Source: Candidatus Brocadiaceae bacterium (GTDB lineage: Bacteria; Planctomycetota; Brocadiia; SM23-32). From it: a stretch of 64,000 nt of DNA. The notes beneath the pieces were generated by a model, which saw nothing but the letters and a program-made list of their open reading frames with translations, was not told the DNA's origin and ran no database searches. The stretch is from assembly GCA_012728835.1 (NCBI GenBank), contig JAAYEJ010000031.1, positions 1 to 64,000 of the forward strand, in the 5' to 3' direction. The first letter of the stretch is position 1; each line of letters begins with the position of its first letter. The position numbers and the translations under genes are program-made. Positions 40,534 through 63,697 of this stretch are shown piece after piece.

Positions 40534-41160
40534 TCAGGCGATCAGGCTGCGGGCCAGGTCGACGGCCGACGCCGCGTCGGCCGCGTACCCGTCGGCGCCG
40601 ATCTCCTCGGCGTATTCCTGGGTGATGGGCGCGCCGCCCACCATGATCCTGGCGCTGAGTCCGGCCTCCCTGGCGGCCTCGATCACGGCTCCCATCTGGG
40701 TCATTGTGGTGGTCAGCAGGGCGGACAGGCCGATGATGTCCGCGTTGTTCTGCCGGGCGAGTTCCACGAAGCGCTCAGCGGGCACGTCGATGCCGGCGTC
40801 GATGACCTTGAACCCGCCGCCCTTGAGCATCATGCCGACCAGGTTCTTGCCGATGTCGTGCAGGTCGCCCTTGACGGTGCCCAGCACGATGATGCCGGCG
40901 CTCTTGACTCCGCTCTGGGCGAGCCCCGGGGCGAGCAGTTCCATGCCGGCGTTCATCGCGCGCGCGGCGATGAGCACCTCGGGCACGTAGAACTCGTTGG
41001 CCTTGAACTTGCGTCCCACCACGTCCATGCCGGCGACCAGTCCCTCGTTGAGGATCTGATCGGCGCCGACGCCTTCGTCCAGGGCCTGCTGGACGAGGCT
41101 GCACACGGTGTTGCGATCGCCTTTGATCAGGGCTTCTGCGACTGCGGCGAGGTCCGCCAT
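40534..41160 (-). CDS. Corrinoid (B12-binding) methyltransferase component
   Basis: 208 aa, the MtmC/MttC/MtaC type of methyl carrier. N-terminal helical cap (AEALIKGDRNTVCSLVQQALDEGV, FYVPEVLIAARAMNAGME) then a cobalamin-binding Rossmann domain whose GDLHDIGKNLVGMML supplies the DxHxxG histidine that ligates cobalt; ALLTTTMTQMG and MVGGAPITQEYAEEIGADGYA follow. It shuttles a methyl group between a substrate methyltransferase and an acceptor. No such methyltransferase, nor a RamA-type activase, is in the window. ATG at 41160 has AAGGAGAG upstream. Ends in an intrinsic terminator. Confidence 0.92.
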   Translation of the reverse strand: MADLAAVAEALIKGDRNTVCSLVQQALDEGVGADQILNEGLVAGMDVVGRKFKANEFYVPEVLIAARAMNAGMELLAPGLAQSGVKSAGIIVLGTVKGDLHDIGKNLVGMMLKGGGFKVIDAGIDVPAERFVELARQNNADIIGLSALLTTTMTQMGAVIEAAREAGLSARIMVGGAPITQEYAEEIGADGYAADAASAVDLARSLIA

Positions 41161-41264
41161 GGGACTCTCCTTAGCGTCAGGTATGCGTGGTGTCCGAGAT
41201 TCCGGGTCCAAGCCGGGCGGCCAGTCTACAGGTGGTCCCGAAGGTGTGTCAAACGAATCCGTCG

Positions 41265-51528: not shown

Positions 51529-52191
51529 TCAGCCGATCCAGAGACCCTCGATGCGAACGCGCATGCCGTCTTTGCCGCGCGCCATCGAGTTCATCAGGCC
51601 GCAGTGACGCCACTGCAGCATGCAGTAGCGAGGCTGGAAGTAGTAGCGCCGCCCGATCTCCAGTTCCACGCGCGTGTGGCGTACCAGTCCCTCGTAGGCC
51701 GTCGTGTTGTAGTAGCCGATGTTGATGCCGTTTTCGCGGGCGGCGAGGGGCCCGACGACGCACCAGACGACCGTTCCGTTGAAGTAGTCGGGGTCCTCCA
51801 TGATGCGTCCCACGTGTGTCACGGGGCAGCCGCAGGAGATCCATGCCGGCCGCCCGAAGATGACGTCGCCCTTCTTCAGCCCGAGGGCCTCCACTTTCGT
51901 GGGGTTGAACAGGATGATCGTCTCGCGCGGCCCCGGCTCCCCGGGGAACTTGTCCAGCAGGAAGTCGTATTCCCTCCCCAGATGGTCCTGCCAGGTGCCT
52001 TCGGCGAGGAACTGCTCGGACGCACAGGGCGCGCCCGGCGGGCAGGAATGGTCCCGGGCCGCCAGGGGTACGCATCGCTGGATCATCATCGGATCCTCGG
52101 CTGCGGCGCGGGCCAGTTCTGCGCAGGACTTGAACCCGCACAGGCCGCAGTCCTTCCCCGGCAACGTCTGCAGGATGTCGTCTGCATCCAT
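51529..52191 (-). CDS. Fe-S protein of the ABC/GTPase/Fe-S operon
   Basis: 220 aa, unnamed. The N-terminus has a 4Fe-4S domain with Cys15, 18, 23 and 40 (C-x2-C-x4-C-x16-C), the spacing of PF04060 domains in AcsC/CdhE corrinoid Fe-S proteins and RnfB. The remainder (LGLKKGDVIFGRPAWISCGCPVTHVG; YYFQPRYCMLQWRHCGLMNSMARG) is unfamiliar and has four more cysteines. ATG at 52191 is chosen over the overlapping GTG because GGGGAGA then falls at correct spacing. Last gene of the trio. Could deliver electrons or a metal to a partner enzyme; this is inference. Confidence 0.65.
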   Translation of the reverse strand: MDADDILQTLPGKDCGLCGFKSCAELARAAAEDPMMIQRCVPLAARDHSCPPGAPCASEQFLAEGTWQDHLGREYDFLLDKFPGEPGPRETIILFNPTKVEALGLKKGDVIFGRPAWISCGCPVTHVGRIMEDPDYFNGTVVWCVVGPLAARENGINIGYYNTTAYEGLVRHTRVELEIGRRYYFQPRYCMLQWRHCGLMNSMARGKDGMRVRIEGLWIG

Positions 52192-52193
52192 CG

Positions 52194-52892
52194 TCACTCT
52201 CCCCTGTAGAAGATGTCCGTGTCGAGCGCACGGAGCACGCCGAAGTGCGCCTGCCTGCCGATCTCCTTCTTGCCCACGCAGATGGTGCAGGTTCCCAGCG
52301 GAGGATTGCCGCGCAGTTGCAGGGGCTCACGCGTCTCCTCCATGGCCGCTATGCGCCGCACGACGTGGTGCACGTTGATGCCGTGCAGGGCGTTGGTGTC
52401 GACGACCGGCACGTCGGCGGCGGCCTTGATGTTGGCGCGGAAGACCTCGCGCTCGGCCTGGGAGACCAGGTCGATCTTGGTCACGATCGCCATGTCGGCC
52501 AGCGACAGCATGGGGCCGATCTTCCGTGGGAGGTTCATGCCGCTGGTGGCCTGCACGACAACGATCCCCAGGGCGGTCTCCACGTACGGAGAGCAGCGCA
52601 GGCACAGCCCGGCCGTCTCCACCAGGAACACGTCGGCCCCCTCCTGCAGGGCCCAGGCAAAGGCATCGCCCAGCACCACGACGTTGCAGTGGTCGGGGCA
52701 GAGGTCGCCGGAGTATATCTTGCGCGAGGGGATGCCCAGCTCGTCGCGGAACATCTCGTCCTCGTTCGCGAACTGCACGTCGATCTTGAGGTAGGCGAGG
52801 GCCTGGCCGCCGGCGATGAGCGTGCGGGCGACCTGTTTGAGGAGGGTGGTCTTGCCGGCGGTCGGCGGGCCGGCGCAGATGACGAGTTTCAT
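52194..52892 (-). CDS. SIMIBI-class GTPase (UreG/HypB/CooC-like)
   Basis: 232 aa. P-loop GPPTAGKTTLLKQ, switch region VETAGLCLRC, and G4-like TKIDLV are present, so nucleotide binding is expected. A cysteine pair in ETAGLCLRCS and another in CTICVGKKEIG near the C-terminus suggest metal binding, as in nickel-handling relatives. The class matures metalloenzymes. Its stop overlaps the Fe-S gene's GTG (GTGA) and its start is 16 nt after the ABC gene. The target enzyme is unknown; none is adjacent. Confidence 0.75.
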   Translation of the reverse strand: MKLVICAGPPTAGKTTLLKQVARTLIAGGQALAYLKIDVQFANEDEMFRDELGIPSRKIYSGDLCPDHCNVVVLGDAFAWALQEGADVFLVETAGLCLRCSPYVETALGIVVVQATSGMNLPRKIGPMLSLADMAIVTKIDLVSQAEREVFRANIKAAADVPVVDTNALHGINVHHVVRRIAAMEETREPLQLRGNPPLGTCTICVGKKEIGRQAHFGVLRALDTDIFYRGE

Positions 52893-52908
52893 ACCGCTCT
52901 TCCTCCTG

Positions 52909-53712
52909 TCAGGCGATGTAGCCGAGGGAACGCAGCCGTTCGTCCAGTTGCCGTGTGCTGAGCCGTTCGCCGGCCCGGATCGAGGCCCGAAGGCCCAGCA
53001 TCAGGTCGTCGAGCTTCTTGATCTCCTCGCCCACGCGCTTCTCGTCCGACTCCGTGACGATCAGCTTCCGCATGGCGCCTCCGCGCATGACCAGGCGGAA
53101 GTCCGACAGCAGGGCGATCCGCGGGTCGTGCGTGACGAAGATGAATATCTTCTCGTAGTCCTTGAGCAGTTCGACCGCCCGAGTCCGATGAATCCCCGCG
53201 TTCTCGATCTCGTCCAGCAGGATGATCGGCGAGTTCCCGATGACGACCGCGTCGGCGATCAGCAGGGCGCGCGTCTGGCCTCCGGACAGCTCGGTCATTG
53301 CACTGGTCGGGATGATGGGCTCGCCGGTCAACTGGTTGGCGAACTCCAGCGTCGCGCCGACCGCCGAGGCGGCGTTCCCGCTGTCACGCACGCGCGCATG
53401 GGTGGTGAGGAACGCCTCCACCGGGAGATCGGAGAGGAAGTTCGTGTGCTGGGTGATCATCGCGACGGGATTGGCGTCGGGCGAGTTGACCACGTCCTCC
53501 GGAGGCGCGGCGCCGTTGATCAGAATCCGGCGGCCCGACGGCGTGTTGGCGTCGGCCAGCAACTCGACGTCGTTGATCAGCGCGGTCTTGCCGGAGCCCG
53601 TGGGCCCGACGACGCTGATGACGTTGCCCATCTCCAGAGTCACCTCCGCGACGGGCTCCGGTTCCCCGTCCTTGCCGCGCCCGCCGAGGACCGTCAGCGC
53701 TTCGATTCTCAT
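52909..53712 (-). CDS. ABC-type ATPase without permease partner
   Basis: 267 aa soluble ABC ATPase. Walker A GPTGSGKTALINDVE, signature LSGGQTRALLIADA, Walker B IILLDEIENAG (Glu after the Asp) and switch His in FVTHDPRIALL. No membrane domain or permease gene is near, as in the non-transport ABC ATPases that act with metalloproteins (for example the A2 component of methyl-CoM reductase activation, named only as an analogy). First gene of the operon. ATG at 53712 has AAAGGAGC upstream. A 24-bp palindrome lies between promoter and start. Confidence 0.75.
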   Translation of the reverse strand: MRIEALTVLGGRGKDGEPEPVAEVTLEMGNVISVVGPTGSGKTALINDVELLADANTPSGRRILINGAAPPEDVVNSPDANPVAMITQHTNFLSDLPVEAFLTTHARVRDSGNAASAVGATLEFANQLTGEPIIPTSAMTELSGGQTRALLIADAVVIGNSPIILLDEIENAGIHRTRAVELLKDYEKIFIFVTHDPRIALLSDFRLVMRGGAMRKLIVTESDEKRVGEEIKKLDDLMLGLRASIRAGERLSTRQLDERLRSLGYIA

Positions 53713-53730
53713 GCACTGCTCCTTTCGGTC

Positions 53731-53754
53731 GCGACACTCCGGACGGAGTGTCGC
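53731..53754. promoter_or_regulatory. 24-bp palindrome in the ABC operon leader
   Basis: Eleven-base exact arms GCGACACTCCG/CGGAGTGTCGC around GA, 19 nt upstream of the ABC start codon. It could be a dimeric repressor operator or an RNA hairpin. No regulator is encoded next to it. Confidence 0.65.
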
Positions 53755-53835
53755 GCAGAAGACGCCAAAGGCTCCTGTATTGCCCTGTATGAACGCGCCG
53801 GTTCCCGGCACACTCCCATAGCACTCCGGCCGCGG

Positions 53836-53865
53836 AGGTTAGTGCATCGGGGGGGCGCCTGTCAA
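53836..53865 (-). promoter_or_regulatory. Putative promoter for the ABC/GTPase/Fe-S operon
   Basis: Perfect TTGACA with TAACCT (3/6) after 18 nt on the minus strand. The -10 is weak. Leader about 120 nt. Confidence 0.35.
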
Positions 53866-54158: not shown

Positions 54159-56873
54159 TCAGTGGCCGGCGGTTGTGCGGGCGACCTCGGCGGCGAGGGC
54201 GTAGAGCCGGGCGTCGCGGTCGCGGTAGCCGGTGCTCTGGTACCAGGCATGGCCGGCCTCGCCCGTCTGGAAGATCCACGTCCAGGGCGCCGAGTAGTTG
54301 TGCGGCGCCGCCACGTAGTTGGCGACGCCCCGCAGCGAGTAGAGGATGCGTGCGTCCAGCTCCGCCTGGCAGCGCGCGGCCAGATCCTCGCCCATGGCCC
54401 GGCGCTTCGCCTCGTCGAGCAGGGCCTGTTCGATGAAGATGCGGGCCTCGCAGGCCTGCACGCCCTCGCGAAGCTGTTCGAAGCGCGCCGTCGGCAGCGC
54501 GCCATCGGGTCCGGGCATGAAGAGCTGACAACAGAGTTGCAGGTTGCCCCAGTTGCTCCACGGGTAGCGGTCGTAGGCGCGGGCCACGCGACGCCCTCGC
54601 CTGTCCTTCACCACGTACCACGTGTCGCCGCCGAGGCGGCCGAAGCCGCGTTGCCCGCCGGCCATGGTGATCTCGGTCATGGAGTGCCACATGGCCCCGG
54701 GGAGCCGGTCCATCTCGCCGCGCCAGCCGGGGCGCAGCAGTTGCTGAGCATGGATCACGGGCTTCGGCTGCCATCCGTAGACCCGCTTCACGGCCGGATC
54801 GGGCGGGAACTGCGTGTCGTGGATGCTCGTGTTATAGCCGGCCCGGAGGCCCAGGTCCTTCCCGCGCATGAAGCGGGCGAGCGTGTAGTGGGAGTGTGAG
54901 ACCCAGGGCAGGTCACCCGTGACCTGGCCCCAGAACTCGACCTCCTCCTTCTGTGCGCGCACGTCGGTGAACCAGCCGAGCATCATCGTGTCGGCGAGCC
55001 CGCGCTGTTCCAGTCGCGCGCGCAGTTCCTGGAACAGTTTCGTCCAGTGTGCCTTGCACGCCGGGTCGTTGTAGTAGCCGGGGAAGGAGACGCGGCCGAC
55101 CTGGCCGGTTGCCGGATCGACCGTCGTCACGAACGGCGCGCGCATGCGTCCCTCGACGCGGCTGATCTGGCCCGGGATGTTGCCGTGACTGCCGCCCAGC
55201 GAGTCCGACGCCTTCTCGAGCAGGAAGACCTCCCAGACGATGAAGCAGACGATCTTCGGCCTGCCCAGGTTCTCCTGGACGACGTCCAGGTACTTGTCCA
55301 GGACCGTGAAATCGAAGTCGTATCCGCCGTCCGCCGTCTTGACCCACCGCACCATCGACTCCTCATTGCCGTAGTAGGTGCAGCAGATGAGGGGCAGATA
55401 GACGACGCTGCTGCCGACCTCGCGCATCAGGCGGAATGAGCGCGCGATCAGCTTGAAGTGCTCGTCCGACCAGGCGGGCACGTCGTATTCGAGCTGCAGG
55501 GTATCCGGCGATTGGATGACCTCTGTCCACGTCCTGAAGTCGTCCGGGTGGGGAAGCGCCCAGTCCGCAACGGTCAGGTCGACAGGCACCTCCAGCGCCG
55601 GCTGGCCCTCACAGGTCAACGTCAGGCGGCCCTGGTAGCGGCCGGCTGTGGCGTCGGCCGGCACGTGGACCGTGACCCACACGGGCGCCACGGCGCCTCG
55701 GGGGCCTGCGTATTCCGCCGGCGGCTCGTCCGCCAGGATGCTGAGCGCCTTGGCGCGCGCGGGACTGCGCGCGTCCGGCGACCCGAGGCCGTAGGTGTAC
55801 TCGTAGACGCCGAACTCCTCGCCGCCCGGCGTGCCGTAGCGCACCCGCACCGCCGAGGCGGCGATCGTGCCGCCAGGACCGGTCAGCTCGCTCGGCTCCG
55901 CCTTGAGGCTTCGGATGGGATCCGGGGAACCGACCACGACCTTGCCCGAGAAGATGCCGTTGCGCGTGGCCGTGAGCGTGATCGGCCGGAGGGGCTCGCA
56001 GGGGTCCGCGGAATCGAGTTCGAAGTCCGTGCGCAGCAGCGAACCGTTCCATGCCTGCAGCCCGGCGGCGGGGGCCGGAAGGGGCTCTGCCGACGTCAGG
56101 CGCACGTCGCGCAGTTCGCACGTGTTCCACTGCAGGTTGTAGAGCGGCTCCTTGTCCCAGCGGAACGTCTTCTGCTCGTCGACGGCGCTGTGATAGGGGG
56201 CGCGGACGACCTCGACGGCCAGGACGTTCACGCCCGGGCGCACCAGGGCGGCGGGCAGCTCGGTCGTCAGTGTGCGGGTCCGCAGGGCGACGCGCCGGAG
56301 CGCCTCCTCGTCCGGCTTGGGCGCCCGCACGACCTTGCCGTCGACGTTCACCATGGCGCCCTCGGGCACCAGGAGGACTCCGTCGGGGGTCAGGAAGGCC
56401 TCGGGTGCGTACTGCGCGGCCAGTTCCGCGCCGGGTTCGATGAACGCTCGGGCCACCTCCTGCCCGTTCAGATACACGAGGGCCGCCCCGTGGAAGCTCA
56501 GCGTGAGCGTGAGCGGGCCGGCCGCCGCGGGGTCCGCAACCCGGAACTTGCCGCGCAGGCAGGCCCTCTGCAGGAACGACGCCCGCACGCCCATGCCCAC
56601 CGGCCCGCGCAGCCAATCCACGTCGTCGAACTCCGGGCCCTGCCACCCGTCGGGCGGGGGCGGCGTGGAGCCGTTCAGCCAGTAGTGCTCCCGATACGCG
56701 AACGTCGCCGGCCGCACGCCGTCGTCGAACGCGAATTCGGGCGCCTTGAGCACGTGGAACATGCGCCAGGAGCCGAACGCATCGAGCAGGACGTTGTCCG
56801 GGGCGGCGTCCGCCCGGCCGGCGGCGAGGAGAAGGGCCAGGAGCGTTGCCAGCAGCGTCGAGACGGAGCGCAT
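54159..56873 (-). CDS. Large secreted DUF4091-like protein
   Basis: 904 aa. Signal peptide (LLATLLALLLAAGRADA). Residues ~60-250 form an atypical galactose-binding-like domain (FHGAALVYLNGQEVARAFIEPG). A beta region includes VWVTVHVPADATAGRYQGRLTLTCEG, then a barrel-like region with YLPLICCTYYGNEESM, FTVLDKYLDVVQENLG and PGAMWHSMTEITMAG. The layout resembles DUF4091-type secreted putative glycosidases that are abundant in Planctomycetota and Lentisphaerota. No catalytic pair can be assigned by eye. Single gene, upstream of the tetR gene in the opposite direction. Confidence 0.7.
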   Translation of the reverse strand: MRSVSTLLATLLALLLAAGRADAAPDNVLLDAFGSWRMFHVLKAPEFAFDDGVRPATFAYREHYWLNGSTPPPPDGWQGPEFDDVDWLRGPVGMGVRASFLQRACLRGKFRVADPAAAGPLTLTLSFHGAALVYLNGQEVARAFIEPGAELAAQYAPEAFLTPDGVLLVPEGAMVNVDGKVVRAPKPDEEALRRVALRTRTLTTELPAALVRPGVNVLAVEVVRAPYHSAVDEQKTFRWDKEPLYNLQWNTCELRDVRLTSAEPLPAPAAGLQAWNGSLLRTDFELDSADPCEPLRPITLTATRNGIFSGKVVVGSPDPIRSLKAEPSELTGPGGTIAASAVRVRYGTPGGEEFGVYEYTYGLGSPDARSPARAKALSILADEPPAEYAGPRGAVAPVWVTVHVPADATAGRYQGRLTLTCEGQPALEVPVDLTVADWALPHPDDFRTWTEVIQSPDTLQLEYDVPAWSDEHFKLIARSFRLMREVGSSVVYLPLICCTYYGNEESMVRWVKTADGGYDFDFTVLDKYLDVVQENLGRPKIVCFIVWEVFLLEKASDSLGGSHGNIPGQISRVEGRMRAPFVTTVDPATGQVGRVSFPGYYNDPACKAHWTKLFQELRARLEQRGLADTMMLGWFTDVRAQKEEVEFWGQVTGDLPWVSHSHYTLARFMRGKDLGLRAGYNTSIHDTQFPPDPAVKRVYGWQPKPVIHAQQLLRPGWRGEMDRLPGAMWHSMTEITMAGGQRGFGRLGGDTWYVVKDRRGRRVARAYDRYPWSNWGNLQLCCQLFMPGPDGALPTARFEQLREGVQACEARIFIEQALLDEAKRRAMGEDLAARCQAELDARILYSLRGVANYVAAPHNYSAPWTWIFQTGEAGHAWYQSTGYRDRDARLYALAAEVARTTAGH

Positions 56874-57065: not shown

Positions 57066-57118
57066 AAGACTCAGGTGCGCGCCGGCGGGAACGGCGACCG
57101 GTCCGAGAGGAGGCGATG

Positions 57119-57697
57119 ATGCACCCGAAGGAGAGCCGACGGGACGCGATTCTGAAGGCCGCGGCGCATCTGGTTCGCGAGAAGGGGCCCGCCCATCTGA
57201 CCATGGACGCCGTCAGCGAGCGGGCGCGCATCAGCAAGGGCGGTCTGCTGTACCACTTCCAGACGAAGGAGTCGCTGGTTGCGGGCATGGTGGAACGCCT
57301 GACGGAGGCGATGGAGGCGGTTCAGGAGGAGGAGGTCGCCAAGCTGCCGCCCAGCCCCGCACGCGAACTCAAGGCGCTTGCGCGGTCGCTGCAGGCCCTC
57401 CGGCACGGGGAGCTGAAGGGCGTCGCGACGGCCCTTCTGGCCGCCGGCGTCCATGACCCCGGGCTGCTGGAGGGGATCAGAAGCGAGCAACGCGAGATGT
57501 TCCAGGAGATGGAGGCCGAGGGCCTCCGCCCGGCATTCGTCCGCGTGATCTTCCTTGCCGCCAAAGGGCTTCTGTTGAGTGAGATGCTGCATTCACTCGC
57601 GCTGAGCGACGCGGAGCGGCAGGCGATTTTCGACGAGCTTCTTCGGCTGATCGGCGAAGAGGAAGCCCGCATGGAGGCCGCCGAGGGTGCTCCATAG
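57119..57697 (+). CDS. TetR-family transcriptional regulator
   Basis: 192 aa. N-terminal HTH domain: RRDAILKAAAHLVREKGPAHLTM, then AVSERARISKGGLLYHFQTKESL, with the conserved Tyr/His of the recognition helix. The C-terminal helical domain should bind a ligand and dimerise. ATG at 57119 places AGGAGG 5 nt upstream; an ATG one codon earlier is the alternative. Its promoter carries a perfect palindrome, so autorepression is likely, and the RND pump 125 nt downstream is the presumed target. Confidence 0.9.
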   Translation: MHPKESRRDAILKAAAHLVREKGPAHLTMDAVSERARISKGGLLYHFQTKESLVAGMVERLTEAMEAVQEEEVAKLPPSPARELKALARSLQALRHGELKGVATALLAAGVHDPGLLEGIRSEQREMFQEMEAEGLRPAFVRVIFLAAKGLLLSEMLHSLALSDAERQAIFDELLRLIGEEEARMEAAEGAP

Positions 57698-57822
57698 GGG
57701 CGGGGCTTTGCTGACGGGCAGCGGAGGAGTGGAGAATACGGGCCGCTTCGTCCGCCGCAGACTCGGGGGCCGGCGGTTCTCAGACCCACGTCAGGTCGTG
57801 CATCGGTGAATCGAGGGACGCT

Positions 57823-59400
57823 ATGGCGATGTCCGAGGCGGACAGAGCATTCGGAATGCTGAGATCGAGAGCGCTGTCCATGAGCAGGGCGTGGAGCAGG
57901 CTGTTGGCGTTCCGGCGGATTCGGGCCGTCGGATGGTGCGCGCTGTGTCTGCTGGCGGTCTGGCCGGCCGGGTGCGCATACCGGGGCGAGATGCGGGGCA
58001 GCCTGCACTCGCGCCGCAGCGAGGCGTATCGCCGGTGGCAGAGCGTGCGCAACGGCGAGGAGGAATCGAAGCCGCACCTGACGGGGGCGCTCAGCCTGCA
58101 AGACGCCCTGAAGGTGGCGATCGCCTACAACAAGTCCCTCCAGGTCACCGTGCAGGAGCGCCTGGTGGCCGCGGGCATGGTCACCGAGGCGTATGCGGGC
58201 GCCATGCCGACGCTGTCGGCCACGGCGGCCTACGTCCGCCTGGAGGAGGTGCCGGCTCCCGGGCAGGTGAACAACTACTCGACGGGGCTCGAGATCCGCC
58301 AGCCGCTCTTCCGGGGCGGCGCCGTGCTGGCGGGCATCCGCACGGCGCAGTGGAACGCGTTGCTGGCCGACGAGCAGGTGCGCGGCGCCGTCCAGTCGGT
58401 GATCTACGACGCGGCGAAGGCCTACTGCGATGTGCTGCTGGCCCAGCATCTCTACGAGGTGAACCGCGACGCCGTCGAGTCGGCCAGGGCCCATCTGCGC
58501 GACGTGGAGATCAAGCGCCAGCAGGGCGTCGTGTCGGACTTCGGCGTGCTGCGCGCCCAGGTGGACGTATCGAACTTCGAGGCGGCCATGATCCAGCAGC
58601 GCAACCGCGTGCACGTGGCCCGGACGGAGCTTCTGCGCAGCATGGGCGCCTCGCAGCAGAGCGAGGTGACCCTCTCGGACGTGCTGACCTACACCCGGTT
58701 GAAGCCCGTCGCGGAGGAGGCCGTGCGCCTGGCCTACCGGAACCGCCCGGACCTGTATCAGGCCGAGTTGGGCATCCTGATGCAGCAGGAGGCCGTGCGG
58801 ATCGCACAGGGCCGGTACTGGCCCATGGTGGACGCCTGGTTCCGCCAGGAATGGGCGCGTCCCGACCCGGTCGTGCCCGCGCGCGACCGCTGGGGCGGCC
58901 TCTGGACGGCGGGGCTCTCGGCGAGCTGGACGCTCTTCGACGGGTTCGGGCGCGAGGGGCGCATCGCCCAGGAGCAAGCCCGGCTGCGGCAGCGGGAGCT
59001 GCAACTGGCCGACGCCGAAGAGCGGGTGCTGGAGCAGTTGCAGCAGGCCGTTCTCAGCGTGCAGGACGCCGAGGAGTTTGTCGAGTCCCAGCGCATGAAC
59101 CTGAGCCGCGCGAGCGAGGCCGTGCGCCTGGCCGAGGTGGAATACCGCCAGGGCATCGCCGAGGCGGTGACCGTCACCGAGGCCCGGGCGGCGCTGACCC
59201 GCGCGCAGGGCTATTACTACGAGGCCGTCTACAGCCACACACTGGCGCGGCTGAACCTGCAGCGCGCCATGGGCATACTGGGTCCGCGTTCGGACGATTC
59301 GACGGCGCCGGAGGACACGGAGTTCCGCCCGGGCCGGATCGCGGAGTTCTCACCGGATGACGCGTCTGCCGCCGACGAGGTTCAAGAGGTTTCGCAATGA
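57823..59400 (+). CDS. TolC-family outer-membrane factor
   Basis: 525 aa outer-membrane channel of a tripartite efflux pump. A lipobox-like LAVWPAGC (Cys51) follows a hydrophobic stretch, so it is probably a lipoprotein; the signal is unusually long and an internal ATG at 57880 could be the true start. The two OMF repeats are visible (LSLQDALKVAIAYNKSLQVT; later LAYRNRPDLYQAELGILMQQ), with ALTRAQGYYYEAVYSH in the second. GAGGGACGC precedes the first ATG. The stop overlaps the adaptor start (ATGA). Confidence 0.88.
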   Translation: MAMSEADRAFGMLRSRALSMSRAWSRLLAFRRIRAVGWCALCLLAVWPAGCAYRGEMRGSLHSRRSEAYRRWQSVRNGEEESKPHLTGALSLQDALKVAIAYNKSLQVTVQERLVAAGMVTEAYAGAMPTLSATAAYVRLEEVPAPGQVNNYSTGLEIRQPLFRGGAVLAGIRTAQWNALLADEQVRGAVQSVIYDAAKAYCDVLLAQHLYEVNRDAVESARAHLRDVEIKRQQGVVSDFGVLRAQVDVSNFEAAMIQQRNRVHVARTELLRSMGASQQSEVTLSDVLTYTRLKPVAEEAVRLAYRNRPDLYQAELGILMQQEAVRIAQGRYWPMVDAWFRQEWARPDPVVPARDRWGGLWTAGLSASWTLFDGFGREGRIAQEQARLRQRELQLADAEERVLEQLQQAVLSVQDAEEFVESQRMNLSRASEAVRLAEVEYRQGIAEAVTVTEARAALTRAQGYYYEAVYSHTLARLNLQRAMGILGPRSDDSTAPEDTEFRPGRIAEFSPDDASAADEVQEVSQ

Positions 59401-60590
59401 AGAAGATACTGAAGGTCGTTGGATGGGTTGTCGCACTGGCCGTCATCCTGTTCGGCGGATGGAAGGGCATGCGCCTTGTCGGGGAGCGGGAGGCGGCCGC
59501 GAAGGAGGCGCCGGCGGCGGCCGGGGAGACCGGCCCGCCGCAGGTGGCCGTCCGGACCGTGTCGCTCGGATCGGTCTCCGTGAGCGTCTGGGTCACGGGC
59601 GAGGTCGGCGCTCTGCAGAGCGTGGAGATCGTGCCGAAGGTCGCCGGTCGGCTGGAGCGTCTGAGGCGTTCGGACGGCGCGCCGATCGAGGAGGGCGTCG
59701 AGGTGGGGCCGGGGGAGACGGTGGCGGTCATCGAGCATGAGCACCTCGCAGCGGCGGTGCGGACGGCCGAGGCGGCGCTGGAGGTGGCCCGGGCGGTACA
59801 CGAGGCCGCCCGCGTGAACGCCGCCGACGCCCTGCGCGAGAAGGCGCGCTGGGAGGAACTGCGCCGGGGCGGGTCAGGAACGCAGCAGCAGCTTGACCAG
59901 GCCGTGACCGCGTATGCGCGAGCCGAGGCGCAGGTCAGGCAGGCGGAGGCGCAGATCGTCCAGGCGCAGGCGGTGCTGGAGCAGGCCCGGGTGGCGGTGG
60001 CCGACGCGACCGTTGCGGCCCCCTTCGCCGGGGTGGTCCTTCGCAAGCACGTGGACGAAGGCGCGTTCGTCGGCCCCGGGACGCCGCTGTTCCGTCTGGC
60101 GGACATCTCCGAGGTGGAGATCACCGGCGGGGTTGCCGGCCGCCATTACGCCGGACTGCGCACCGGCGAGACGCGCGCCGTTGTCGAGGTTGACGCCTAT
60201 CCGGGCGAGGTGTTCGAGGGCACGGTCAGCCGGCTGCGTCCGGAACTGGACTCCGTCACGCGCACGGTCGCGGTGACCATCCGGGTGCCGAATGCCGAAC
60301 GCAAGCTCAAGCCCGGCATGTACGCCCGCACGCGATTGGCGCTGGACGAACGCGTGGCCGTGCCCGTCCTGCCCGACACCGCCATCGTGACCCACGGCGA
60401 CCGGCGCGAGGTCTTCGTAGTCAACGACGGCGAGGTCCACGTGCGTGAGGTGGAGACGGGCCTGCAGGAGGGCCCCCTCAGCGAGGTCGTGCGCGGCGTG
60501 CGCGCGGGCGATCGCGTCGTGGTGCGCGGGCAGCAGTTGCTCAGGGACGGCATGACCGTGGTGCCGGTCGAGGTGGAGGACGGTCGATGA
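59397..60590 (+). CDS. RND efflux periplasmic adaptor (MacA/AcrA-like)
   Basis: 397 aa membrane-fusion protein. N-terminal anchor KVVGWVVALAVILFGG, then a lipoyl-like half with SVSVWVTGEVGALQSVEIVPKVAGRLER, an alpha-helical hairpin (about 110-190), the second half-lipoyl motif ATVAAPFAGVVLRKHVDEGAFVG and a beta-barrel with ADISEVEITGGV. It bridges the pump and the outer-membrane factor. ATGA overlaps join it to both neighbours. Confidence 0.92.
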   Translation: MKKILKVVGWVVALAVILFGGWKGMRLVGEREAAAKEAPAAAGETGPPQVAVRTVSLGSVSVSVWVTGEVGALQSVEIVPKVAGRLERLRRSDGAPIEEGVEVGPGETVAVIEHEHLAAAVRTAEAALEVARAVHEAARVNAADALREKARWEELRRGGSGTQQQLDQAVTAYARAEAQVRQAEAQIVQAQAVLEQARVAVADATVAAPFAGVVLRKHVDEGAFVGPGTPLFRLADISEVEITGGVAGRHYAGLRTGETRAVVEVDAYPGEVFEGTVSRLRPELDSVTRTVAVTIRVPNAERKLKPGMYARTRLALDERVAVPVLPDTAIVTHGDRREVFVVNDGEVHVREVETGLQEGPLSEVVRGVRAGDRVVVRGQQLLRDGMTVVPVEVEDGR

Positions 60591-63500
60591 ACCTGCCCGA
60601 AGTCTCCGTGCGCAACCCCGTGACGACGCTGATGGTGTTTCTCGGCGTGATCCTGGTGGGGGCCTTCTGTCTGCTCCAGATGCCCCTGGATCTCTTTCCC
60701 GAGATGGAGATCCCCATACTGACCATCATGACGCCCTATGAGGGCGCGGGGCCGGAGGAGATCGAGGAGAAGATCACCCGTCCGCTCGAACGGGTGCTCT
60801 CCACGGTGGAGGACCTCAAGAACAGCTTCTCCACGTCGAAGGAGGGAAGTTCGCAGATCAGCCTGGAGTTCGACTGGGGCACGGACCTGGAGGCCCGAGC
60901 CAACGACGTGCGCGACGCGGTGGACATGACCCTGCGCCTCATGCCGGAGGAGGCGGAGCGCCCGCGCATCTTCAAGCTGGACATGAACCAGTTCCCCGTG
61001 ATGGTCTACGGCGTCTACGCGGACGAGTCCTACGCGGAACTGGAGGACATCCTGGAGAACGAGGTGGCCAACCCCCTTGAGGGGGCGCCCGGCGTGGCGG
61101 CGGTCACCGTCATCACGCCCCTGCAGCGGCAGGTGAACGTGGACCTGGACCGCGAACTCCTGGCCGCCCATCGCCTGACGCCCTCCGACGTGGCGGGGGC
61201 CCTGGCTCGCGAGAACTACCAGGCGGCGGCCGGCAGCATCAAGATGGGCGACACCGACTACCTGCCCCGCGTTCCCGGCGAGTTCGAGACGGTCGAGCCG
61301 ATGAACGAGATCGTCGTGCGGGCGCGCGACGGAGCGATCGTGCGCCTGAAGGACGTCGGGCGCGCGACGTTCGGATTCCGCGACATGGACCTGGACGTGC
61401 GCATCAACGGCCTGCCCGGCGGGATATTCTTCGTGCAGAAGCAGTCGGGCGCCAACACCGTCTCCACGGCCAGGGAAGTGCGCCGACGCCTCGACGCCAT
61501 CCTGGCCGGCGGGCGTTTGCCGGCCGACGTGACCGTCGTGAACGTGATGGACGGGTCGGACGACATCCAGCGGATGGTCGATGACCTGGTGGCGACGCTC
61601 CTGATCGGCGGCGCCCTGGCGATGGTCGTGGTGCTGGTATTCCTGCGCCAGGTGCGCGGCACCCTCATCATCGGGCTGGCCATCCCGTTCTCCCTGATCG
61701 CGGCCGGGGTGGTCATGTACATGCTGGATTACTCGATCAACATGCTCACGCTGTTCGCACTGATCGTGGCGATCGGCATGGTGGTCGACAACGCGATCGT
61801 GGTGCTGGAGAACATCGCCAGCCACCGCGAGCAGGGGGAGAGCGCCGGCGAGGGCGCCATCTTCGGGGCGACCGAGGTCGGGATGGCGGTCGTGGCGTCC
61901 ACCCTGACGACGCTGTGCATCTTCTTCCCGCTGCTGTTCGTCCAGGGCATCGCGCGGATCGTCTTCGCCCCGTTCGCGGTGGTGGCGGCCGCCGTTCTGC
62001 TCGCCTCGTTGTTCACCGCCCTTACCATGACGCCCATGATGGCCTCGCGGCTGCTCACACGCGGATACGGCGACGGCCGCCGCGAGAGCTGGTTCTTCCG
62101 GATGAGCGAGGCCGGGTTCGATGGGCTGGCCAACGCCTACTCGAGCGTCCTGGGCTGGTCCCTGCGCCACCGGGGCATCGTCATCCTGGCCGTGCTGGCC
62201 CTGTTGATGAGCAGCCTGGCGCTCGTGCCGGCCATCGGCTTCGAGCTGATGCCGGAGGAGGACCGGGCCATGATCCAGGGGTCCATCAAGCTGCCCGTCG
62301 GCACCCGCGTCGAGCGCACGGCGGAAGCCCTCGAGGCCGTCTATGCGGAGATCCTCGAGGAGATTCCGGAGGAGCACATGCTGGCCATCTTCACCCGGTG
62401 CGGCACGTCCGCAGAGGGTTCCCCGATGTCCGGCGACGCGGGGAGCCACGTCGGCAGCTTCGGCATGCGGCTGGTGCCCCGGGAGGACCGCGGCTGGCAC
62501 GTGGCGCAGGTCGGCGACGCCCTGCGCAAGCGGATCCAACGCCTCGCTCCGCAGTATGGAATCGTCGACTACCGCATCGACATGCAGGACGCCATGTCGG
62601 GGCTGGCCAGCGGAGGCGGGCGGGCCCTGGCGGTGGAGATCCGGGGCGATGACCTGGAGGCGGTCGACCGCTTCGCGGCCTGGCTCCTGCCCAGGATGGC
62701 GGCCGTGCCCGGGGCCATGGATGTGGGCGTCTCCCGCGAGGATCCCACGCCGGAGGCGTGGGTGCGGGTCGATCGCGACAAGGCCTCGTCGCTGGGCCTG
62801 AACGTCTCGGATGTCGCCGACGCCGTCCGAATCGCCGTCTACGGCCGCACGGCCAGCTACTACCGCGTCGGCGGCGACGAGTACGACATCTTCGTGCGCC
62901 TGCAGGAGTCCGACCGCGATCGCCTGGACGGCCTGGGCCACCTGGCCGTGCGCCTTCCGAGCGGAGAACTGGTCCGTATCGAGAACGTTGCGGAGGTCAC
63001 CAGGGAACTGGGGCCGCTGGAGATCGAGCGCAAGAACCAGCGCCGCATCGTCCGGGTCGACGCCAACGTGCACGGCCGATCCCTGGGCGAAGTGGCCGCC
63101 GACGTCCAGGCGATCGTGGCCGAGGCGGACATCCCGCAGGGGCTGGAAGTGAGCATGGGAGGGCAGGTTCAGGAGATGCGCGAGACCTTCTTCTGGCTCA
63201 CCCTCGCGCTGGTGATCGCCGTCATCCTCGTCTACATGGTCATGGCCTCGCAGTTCGAATCGCTCATGCACCCGTTCGTGGTCATGTTCTCCATCCCCTT
63301 CGCCTTCATCGGCGTCCTCTGGGTGCTTTTCCTCGGGGGCTATGCCCTGAGCATGGTCGTGTTCCTGGGGGCGCTGCTCCTGATCGGAGTGGTGGTGAAC
63401 AACGCCATCGTGCTGGTGGACTACATCAACATCCTCCGCGCGCGCGGGCTGGACATGATGGAGGCCGTTCAGGAAGCCGGGCGCTCGCGCCTGCGGCCCG

Positions 63501-63697
63501 TGCTCATGACGGCGACCACCACGATCGTCGCCCTGGCGCCCATGGCCTTCAAGTCCGGGCAGGGCTCCGAGACGTGGAACCCCCTGGGGGCCACGATCAT
63601 GGGAGGGCTGCTGGTCTCGACCGTGGTCACCCTGGTGCTCGTGCCGACGATCTACAGCATCTTCGAGAGCCGCGCCCGCCCCGCCAACCATCGATAG
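60587..63697 (+). CDS. RND efflux transporter (HAE1-like)
   Basis: 1036 aa, about 12 membrane segments and two large periplasmic loops. N-terminal VSVRNPVTTLMVFLGVILVG; transmembrane helix 4 reads IGMVVDNAIVVLENI, so one of the paired Asp residues of AcrB (D407/D408) is Asn here, a common HAE1-like variant. The second half has VYMVMASQFESLMHPFVVMFSIPFAFIGV. It extrudes drugs, lipids or metals by proton exchange; substrate unknown. Coupled by ATGA to the adaptor; a PII-like gene follows after 10 nt. Confidence 0.93.
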   Translation: MNLPEVSVRNPVTTLMVFLGVILVGAFCLLQMPLDLFPEMEIPILTIMTPYEGAGPEEIEEKITRPLERVLSTVEDLKNSFSTSKEGSSQISLEFDWGTDLEARANDVRDAVDMTLRLMPEEAERPRIFKLDMNQFPVMVYGVYADESYAELEDILENEVANPLEGAPGVAAVTVITPLQRQVNVDLDRELLAAHRLTPSDVAGALARENYQAAAGSIKMGDTDYLPRVPGEFETVEPMNEIVVRARDGAIVRLKDVGRATFGFRDMDLDVRINGLPGGIFFVQKQSGANTVSTAREVRRRLDAILAGGRLPADVTVVNVMDGSDDIQRMVDDLVATLLIGGALAMVVVLVFLRQVRGTLIIGLAIPFSLIAAGVVMYMLDYSINMLTLFALIVAIGMVVDNAIVVLENIASHREQGESAGEGAIFGATEVGMAVVASTLTTLCIFFPLLFVQGIARIVFAPFAVVAAAVLLASLFTALTMTPMMASRLLTRGYGDGRRESWFFRMSEAGFDGLANAYSSVLGWSLRHRGIVILAVLALLMSSLALVPAIGFELMPEEDRAMIQGSIKLPVGTRVERTAEALEAVYAEILEEIPEEHMLAIFTRCGTSAEGSPMSGDAGSHVGSFGMRLVPREDRGWHVAQVGDALRKRIQRLAPQYGIVDYRIDMQDAMSGLASGGGRALAVEIRGDDLEAVDRFAAWLLPRMAAVPGAMDVGVSREDPTPEAWVRVDRDKASSLGLNVSDVADAVRIAVYGRTASYYRVGGDEYDIFVRLQESDRDRLDGLGHLAVRLPSGELVRIENVAEVTRELGPLEIERKNQRRIVRVDANVHGRSLGEVAADVQAIVAEADIPQGLEVSMGGQVQEMRETFFWLTLALVIAVILVYMVMASQFESLMHPFVVMFSIPFAFIGVLWVLFLGGYALSMVVFLGALLLIGVVVNNAIVLVDYINILRARGLDMMEAVQEAGRSRLRPVLMTATTTIVALAPMAFKSGQGSETWNPLGATIMGGLLVSTVVTLVLVPTIYSIFESRARPANHR

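Follow-up and report, generated by a model that had tools for sequence, protein, structure and literature searches.

A conserved three-gene operon encoding an ABC ATPase, a HypB/UreG-type GTPase, and an Fe-S protein, with a probable role in sulfur acquisition

Introduction

The closest described counterparts of the operon analyzed here, which encodes a permease-less ABC ATPase, a GTPase, and an Fe-S protein (hereafter, the trio), each resemble it in part. HypB and UreG share with the trio GTPase the SIMIBI fold and a Cys/His motif at the nucleotide site, but are ~19% to 22% identical to it and lack its extra Cys pairs, CLRC and CTIC; the GTPase scores far under the cut-offs of both families (HypB, 37.1 versus 121.2 bits; UreG, 29.6 versus 204.2 bits), and no hydrogenase or urease genes were seen near the trio in the loci read. 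The AcsC N-terminus and RnfB carry the same PF04060 four-Cys [4Fe-4S] motif as the trio Fe-S protein, which, however, lacks a corrinoid/TIM-barrel domain and possesses an unrelated C-terminal domain with invariant Cys and His residues of its own. The SUF system (SufBCD-S) likewise includes a permease-less ABC ATPase, and a cysteine desulfurase is encoded in some trio loci (5/21), but SufB/D are missing from the trio operon, whereas SUF has no counterpart of the GTPase or the PF04060 protein. Siroheme sulfite reductases (CysI, AsrC, Dsr, and Fsr) are similar in the reaction proposed below and in genomic niche, whereas the trio consists of 3 unrelated proteins, with no siroheme protein and neither a PF01077 (NIR_SIR) nor a PF01507 (CysH) domain. 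Finally, in the MCR activation complex (component A2 ATPase and FeS subunits), ATP drives action on or through Fe-S centers (PMC12176620), as proposed for the trio, but the FeS proteins of the trio differ, its context is not that of methanogens, and no likeness in sequence is evident. As a system, the trio reaches no family cut-off in Pfam or NCBIfam and is not described in the open-access literature searched, which also contained nothing relevant on DUF1858 or siroheme-free sulfite reductases.

Results

The window, a stretch of 64,000 nucleotides from contig JAAYEJ010000031.1 of a Candidatus Brocadiaceae bacterium, carries the 3 genes on its minus strand as a tight operon (53712 to 51529) without a permease gene (Table 1). 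All 3 open reading frames (ORFs) were found where an earlier note on this DNA had placed them. The close packing described there is correct for the 16-nt gap between the ABC ATPase and GTPase genes, whereas the stop/start overlap of the GTPase and Fe-S genes hangs on a GTG start at 52197. The Fe-S gene probably begins at ATG 52191, which has a better-spaced Shine-Dalgarno sequence (AGGGGAG, 5 nt) and agrees with the starts of homologues; a 2-nt gap between the 2 genes is therefore more likely than an overlap. The 3 proteins contain no convincing membrane segment (maximum 19-residue Kyte-Doolittle score, 1.77). In line with the earlier note, we found no gene for a transporter or a metallo-client close to the trio in the window, and no sulfur gene is near it either. 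Approximately 450 bp 5′ of the operon and on the same strand is a gene for a 904-aa protein with a GH123-like catalytic domain (54159 to 56873), and positions 57116 to 63697, encoding a TetR regulator, followed by an outer-membrane efflux protein, a HlyD-type fusion protein, and a 1036-aa ORF, are likely an RND-type efflux operon.

Table 1. Features of the trio operon and its upstream region in the window.
Feature	Position	Strand	Basis
ABC ATPase, permease-less, single-NBD, 267 aa	52909..53712	-	ORF and motifs
G3E/SIMIBI GTPase, HypB/UreG-like fold, 232 aa	52194..52892	-	ORF, motifs, and model
Fe-S protein, 220 aa from ATG 52191 (GTG 52197 possible)	51529..52191	-	ORF and PF04060
Candidate operator or leader hairpin; perfect 12-bp inverted repeat	53730..53755		Function predicted
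Possible sigma-70-like promoter, TTGACA-18-TAACCT, 5′ of the operon	53836..53865	-	By eye, weak

Comparison with Pfam assigned the ABC protein to ABC_tran (7.6e-13), the GTPase to cobW/HypB/UreG (PF02492; 2.9e-11), and residues 12 to 44 of the Fe-S protein to PF04060 (2.3e-8), with no Pfam family matching the latter protein outside these residues. The ABC protein displays the hallmarks of ABC-transporter nucleotide-binding domains (Walker A/B, signature, and H-loop), and its motifs (Walker A GPTGSGKT, Q-loop Q88, LSGGQ, LLDE, and H195) are invariant across homologues. The GTPase, credited by the earlier note with 2 Cys pairs, contains 3, within the motifs CPDHC, CLRC, and CTIC (C65/H68(/C69), C97/C100, and C202/C205); C65, H68, C97, C100, C202, and C205 are invariant in 20 GTPases, including a Fusobacterium homologue (34%). 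A structural model of the GTPase (pLDDT 68, pTM 0.74) was matched best by Foldseek to HypB (2hf8; E 2.4e-9) and also to UreG (5xkt). In the Fe-S protein (residues numbered from the GTG), the PF04060 cluster ligands C17, C20, C25, and C42 are invariant in 21 sequences, and the AcsC-like cluster spacing pointed out earlier is borne out by a profile match to the N-terminus of the CFeSP large subunit (4djd; 3.3e-5), which covers only positions 5 to 53 of solved AcsC. The profile search of the C-terminus proposed in the earlier note returned no known family; there, C122, C124, C192, and H128 are invariant and C146 is nearly so in the same 21 sequences. The invariant Cys and His residues suggest that the GTPase binds a metal or cluster and that the Fe-S protein has, beyond the PF04060 cluster, another metal or Fe-S site. 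An AlphaFold2 model of the Fe-S protein, built with 10 close homologues, was too poor for use (pLDDT 47.5).

The gene order ABC-GTPase-FeS is kept in all 20 complete loci, which derive from 10 genomes of several phyla (one an archaeal bin) and from 11 other Omnitrophota, whose loci form a diverged clade. A scan of genome contigs with the Fe-S protein yielded 9 loci with this order, all in metagenome-assembled genomes (labeled Euryarchaeota, Omnitrophota, Spirochaetes [two], Thermoanaerobaculaceae, Oligoflexia, Sedimentisphaerales, and 2 further bacteria), with proteins 60% to 74% identical to those of the window. Within the Omnitrophota, the Fe-S protein is encoded in 12 of 315 genomes, 11 of them in the diverged clade, whose flanks show the same order; in 5 Omnitrophota loci (one cut by a contig end), a NifS-type cysteine desulfurase gene comes before the FeS gene. 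With further counts of 2/296 genomes in Spirochaetes and 1/392 in the phylum of the window, the trio is rare and patchy, but it is a true unit far beyond chance, given the conservation of gene order and sequence between phyla. The 2 findings that the earlier note held would speak against it were looked for and not found: the genes are conserved together across genomes, and homologues are not always accompanied by an ordinary ABC permease, a permease gene being part of the operon in 0 of ~21 loci. Given the combination of high identity and patchy presence, the trio has probably spread horizontally. Distances between the 3 proteins correlate positively but modestly (r 0.47 to 0.53; Mantel p 0.007 to 0.03), so the case for co-inheritance rests on gene order.

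A scan of viral contigs detected no GTPase homologue, and a scan of plasmids only the Fusobacterium protein (34%) and a UreG. The former belongs to a distant GTPase and ABC pair (34% and 40%; L063:10823-13807) in Fusobacterium vincentii, on a replicon filed as a plasmid (NZ_CP084075.1) that, at 2.1 Mb, looks like a chromosome. A DUF1858-SBP_bac_6 protein with no evident signal peptide takes the place of the Fe-S protein, and genes for a zinc-type ABC transporter adjoin. Here the NTPase pair exists in a second version with different equipment, and the genus is culturable.

The recurring neighbors, regulator, and operator of the trio are those of sulfur acquisition. In L011 (L011/L029), the trio has as neighbors cysD-cysN-cysQ, a gene for an Rrf2 protein, and a Pst-like operon in divergent orientation; L007 has the order TauE/SafE, trio, Rrf2, mnmA, Rrf2, cysD, cysNC; TauE/SafE is also found by the trio in L012; and in L013, genes for an Rrf2 protein and a PstS-like substrate-binding protein (SBP) are located 27 bp upstream. 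NifS, CBS-CysK, CGS, or MetX genes occur near the trio in the Omnitrophota loci L064-L066, L069, L072, and L074, and CysK/CBS, CGS, MetX, MetW, MetY, and MetNIQ are encoded nearby in L065, L066, L069, and L074. Approximately half of the loci, including that in the window, have no sulfur neighbor, some of them on short contigs. The mnmA-like tRNA thiolase gene beside the trio in L007 (5381-7487) is flanked by 2 differing Rrf2 genes, one product having 3 Cys and the other being of the Cys-poor cysD/trio type.

Nine of the 10 trio-linked Rrf2 regulators have 0 to 2 cysteines and the common motif DGxLAPxxSxSxxF. These 9 group with the Rrf2 encoded directly 5′ of cysD (L007) and with that divergent from cysC-cysD (G083), and this Cys-poor subgroup splits from 5 Fe-S-type Rrf2 of the same genomes (support 0.988); the Rrf2 of L006 is trio-linked yet of the Fe-S type. 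In G081, a 30-base element 5′ of the trio has a 29/30 copy 5′ of a Pst-like operon on another contig, compared to 21/30 for the best shuffle. G084 and G086 have in common the palindrome TTGTCTAYN7ATAGACAA 5′ of the trio, and AACACTCCGATTAGAGTATAA is a candidate operator for Rrf2. An operator shared by trio and Pst-like loci is weak in G082 (22 versus 20), and in neither G083 nor G084 do the trio and cysD loci share one that exceeds shuffles. Directly 5′ of the ABC start in the window is the inverted repeat CGCGACACTCCG-GA-CGGAGTGTCGCG, which has the core ACACTCCG in common with the G081 operator; it is a single hit at 0 mismatches, but when 3 mismatches are allowed, hits arise in 34 of 100 shuffles as well, so that its role is only suggested.

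The SBP of the Pst-like importer has CGA at the position of the phosphate-binding SGT of phosphate PstS, and G082, G083, and G084 encode a separate canonical-type PstS besides it, so that phosphate would be an unlikely substrate. Genes for dedicated permeases and an ATPase accompany those of a family of such PstS-like SBPs, with CGA(A) for SGT and GGAGKGM in the first loop (L011:7368-8315, L013:4194-5153, L015, and L017-L019); the substrate of this family is probably a sulfur oxyanion.

PF01077 (NIR_SIR) is absent from 8 of 10 main-clade genomes, including that of the window, and the PF01507 matches in G000, G079, G083, G084, and G086 are CysD, not CysH; CysD is absent from the incomplete bins G081, G082, and G085. 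Among 80 Omnitrophota genomes, CysD is present in 9 of 12 with the trio versus 18 of 68 without it (p = 0.002), and among those with CysD, sulfite reductase (SiR) is present in 2/9 with versus 15/18 without the trio (p = 0.004); no significant difference in SiR is seen when all 80 genomes are compared (p = 0.21), and these p values ignore shared ancestry. All 7 trio-bearing Omnitrophota with CysD and without SiR have a single PF01507 match and no CysH, whereas a second PF01507 match (CysH) is present in all 15 with CysD and SiR that lack the trio. Trio and SiR co-occur in 3 Omnitrophota (G495, G510, and G688). In the genome of the window and most trio-bearing Omnitrophota, cysDN is located among polysaccharide, sulfotransferase, or phosphodiesterase genes, corresponding to route 1c (sulfation) of a published scheme (PMC10322725). 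CysDN may thus serve sulfation in the genome of the window and several others, confounding the co-occurrence test, and because many cysDN loci have such contexts, we downgraded the CysD association. Short-form CysD and CysN genes in L104:745-4314 (G000 contig C75), L108, L110, and L111 adjoin genes for an alkaline-phosphatase-superfamily phosphodiesterase and polysaccharide export, in what looks like a sulfation cassette of unrelated phyla.

Discussion

The trio probably belongs to sulfur acquisition. More tentatively, and with somewhat less than even confidence, we propose that it reduces a sulfur oxyanion to sulfide, driven by NTP and independently of siroheme, with sulfite as the likeliest substrate, because import of an unusual oxyanion, TauE/SafE, and enzymes that use sulfide are recurring features, whereas CysH and siroheme SiR are for the most part absent. 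The trio would be a horizontally spread cytosolic machine in the sulfur-limitation regulon of anaerobes, its genes lying under or beside CymR-like Rrf2 regulators and sulfur genes. NTP hydrolysis by the ABC ATPase and by a GTPase dimer that carries its Cys pairs at the nucleotide site would gate electron transfer to, or build, the clusters of the Fe-S protein, whose second site (3 Cys and a His) would reduce the imported oxyanion. Sulfite could be imported as such or set free from a sulfur compound, and the sulfide would feed cysteine and methionine synthesis, with the trio standing in where siroheme SiR is absent. In its most specific form, a sulfite or activated-sulfate reductase without siroheme in which the ABC protein and an Fe-S/metal-binding GTPase drive a new-fold, two-cluster Fe-S protein, the proposal is rather doubtful. 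We know of no catalytic precedent for the C-terminal domain of the Fe-S protein and no solved relative, and ATP is thermodynamically unneeded for sulfite reduction. Also counting against sulfite reduction are the 3 Omnitrophota with both trio and SiR, the lack of sulfur genes near the trio in the window, the NifS gene inside 5 loci, which it does not account for, and the Fusobacterium pair, which lacks the Fe-S protein and lies near zinc-type transporters.

The main alternative, itself somewhat unlikely, is that the trio is a machine for Fe-S cluster assembly or sulfur trafficking induced by sulfur limitation, with a SufC-like ABC protein, a GTPase that inserts metal, the PF04060 protein as scaffold or carrier, and NifS supplying sulfur where present. 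The position of the desulfurase gene between the GTPase and FeS genes in the 5 Omnitrophota loci and the pairing of a permease-less ABC protein with a metal-type GTPase agree with it, but the ABC protein is no near relative of SufC, the Cys-poor Rrf2 subgroup has no Fe-S cysteines and includes the regulators beside cysD and cysC, and the Pst-like, TauE, and cysDN links are left unexplained. The SufB/D core domain cuts both ways: it is missing from 9 of 21 trio genomes, but present in the other 12, always on contigs other than that of the trio and in none of the trio loci, so that the trio is not simply a SUF replacement.

Another sulfur source or step, such as PAPS/APS reduction, thiosulfate, or sulfonate C-S cleavage by a C-P-lyase-like ATPase/Fe-S assembly, is unlikely. 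Trio genomes with CysD also lack CysH, CysQ adjoins the trio cluster in L011, and an NMT1/Tau-type SBP is encoded upstream in L064; CysD is, however, missing from the 3 incomplete bins, the proteins have no radical-SAM motif, and the sulfonate transporter is confined to one lineage.

The earlier note read the trio as a metallocenter maturation or reductive-activation machine for a corrinoid, nickel, or CO dehydrogenase (CODH) enzyme. A conserved ATP/GTP/Fe-S machine stands, and metallocenter maturation in the broad sense remains a rival, whereas the client is improbable. The AcsC-like N-terminus of the Fe-S protein, the HypB/UreG fold of the GTPase, and the resemblance of CPDHC to the nickel sites of UreG and HypB would fit, but the neighborhood survey found such a client in the trio cluster at 0 of ~21 loci, the regulator and operator link the trio to a sulfur regulon, and the corrinoid protein of the window is unlinked, 10 kb away. 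The latter (40534 to 41211) is a genuine B12-binding protein not adjacent to the trio, as had been noted; it is stand-alone, surrounded by tRNA synthetase and TPR genes, with no methyltransferase call among the neighbors tested. Very improbable is that the ABC protein and GTPase are cytosolic ATPase subunits of an ordinary importer and the Fe-S gene is incidental, as co-regulation in G081 and adjacency in G084 and G086 with Pst-like transporters might suggest: subunit identity was dropped because the Pst-like transporters of G081, G082, G083, G084, and G078 come with a PstB-type ATPase of their own, several trio genomes have no Pst-like match, and every trio includes the FeS gene.

We file the trio as a new variant among NTP-driven Fe-S/metal machines, in which known folds come together in a three-part combination that is apparently new; it would be categorically new only if reductase activity were proven. 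Many anaerobes represented by metagenomes only have no recognizable genes for producing sulfide from oxidized sulfur, and the compact, transferable trio is a testable candidate for the supply of their cysteine and Fe-S synthesis. If this is true, it would be a new NTP-driven Fe-S machine and, should it act as a reductase, would provide a third route for oxidized sulfur beside the CysIJ- and Dsr/Fsr-type enzymes.
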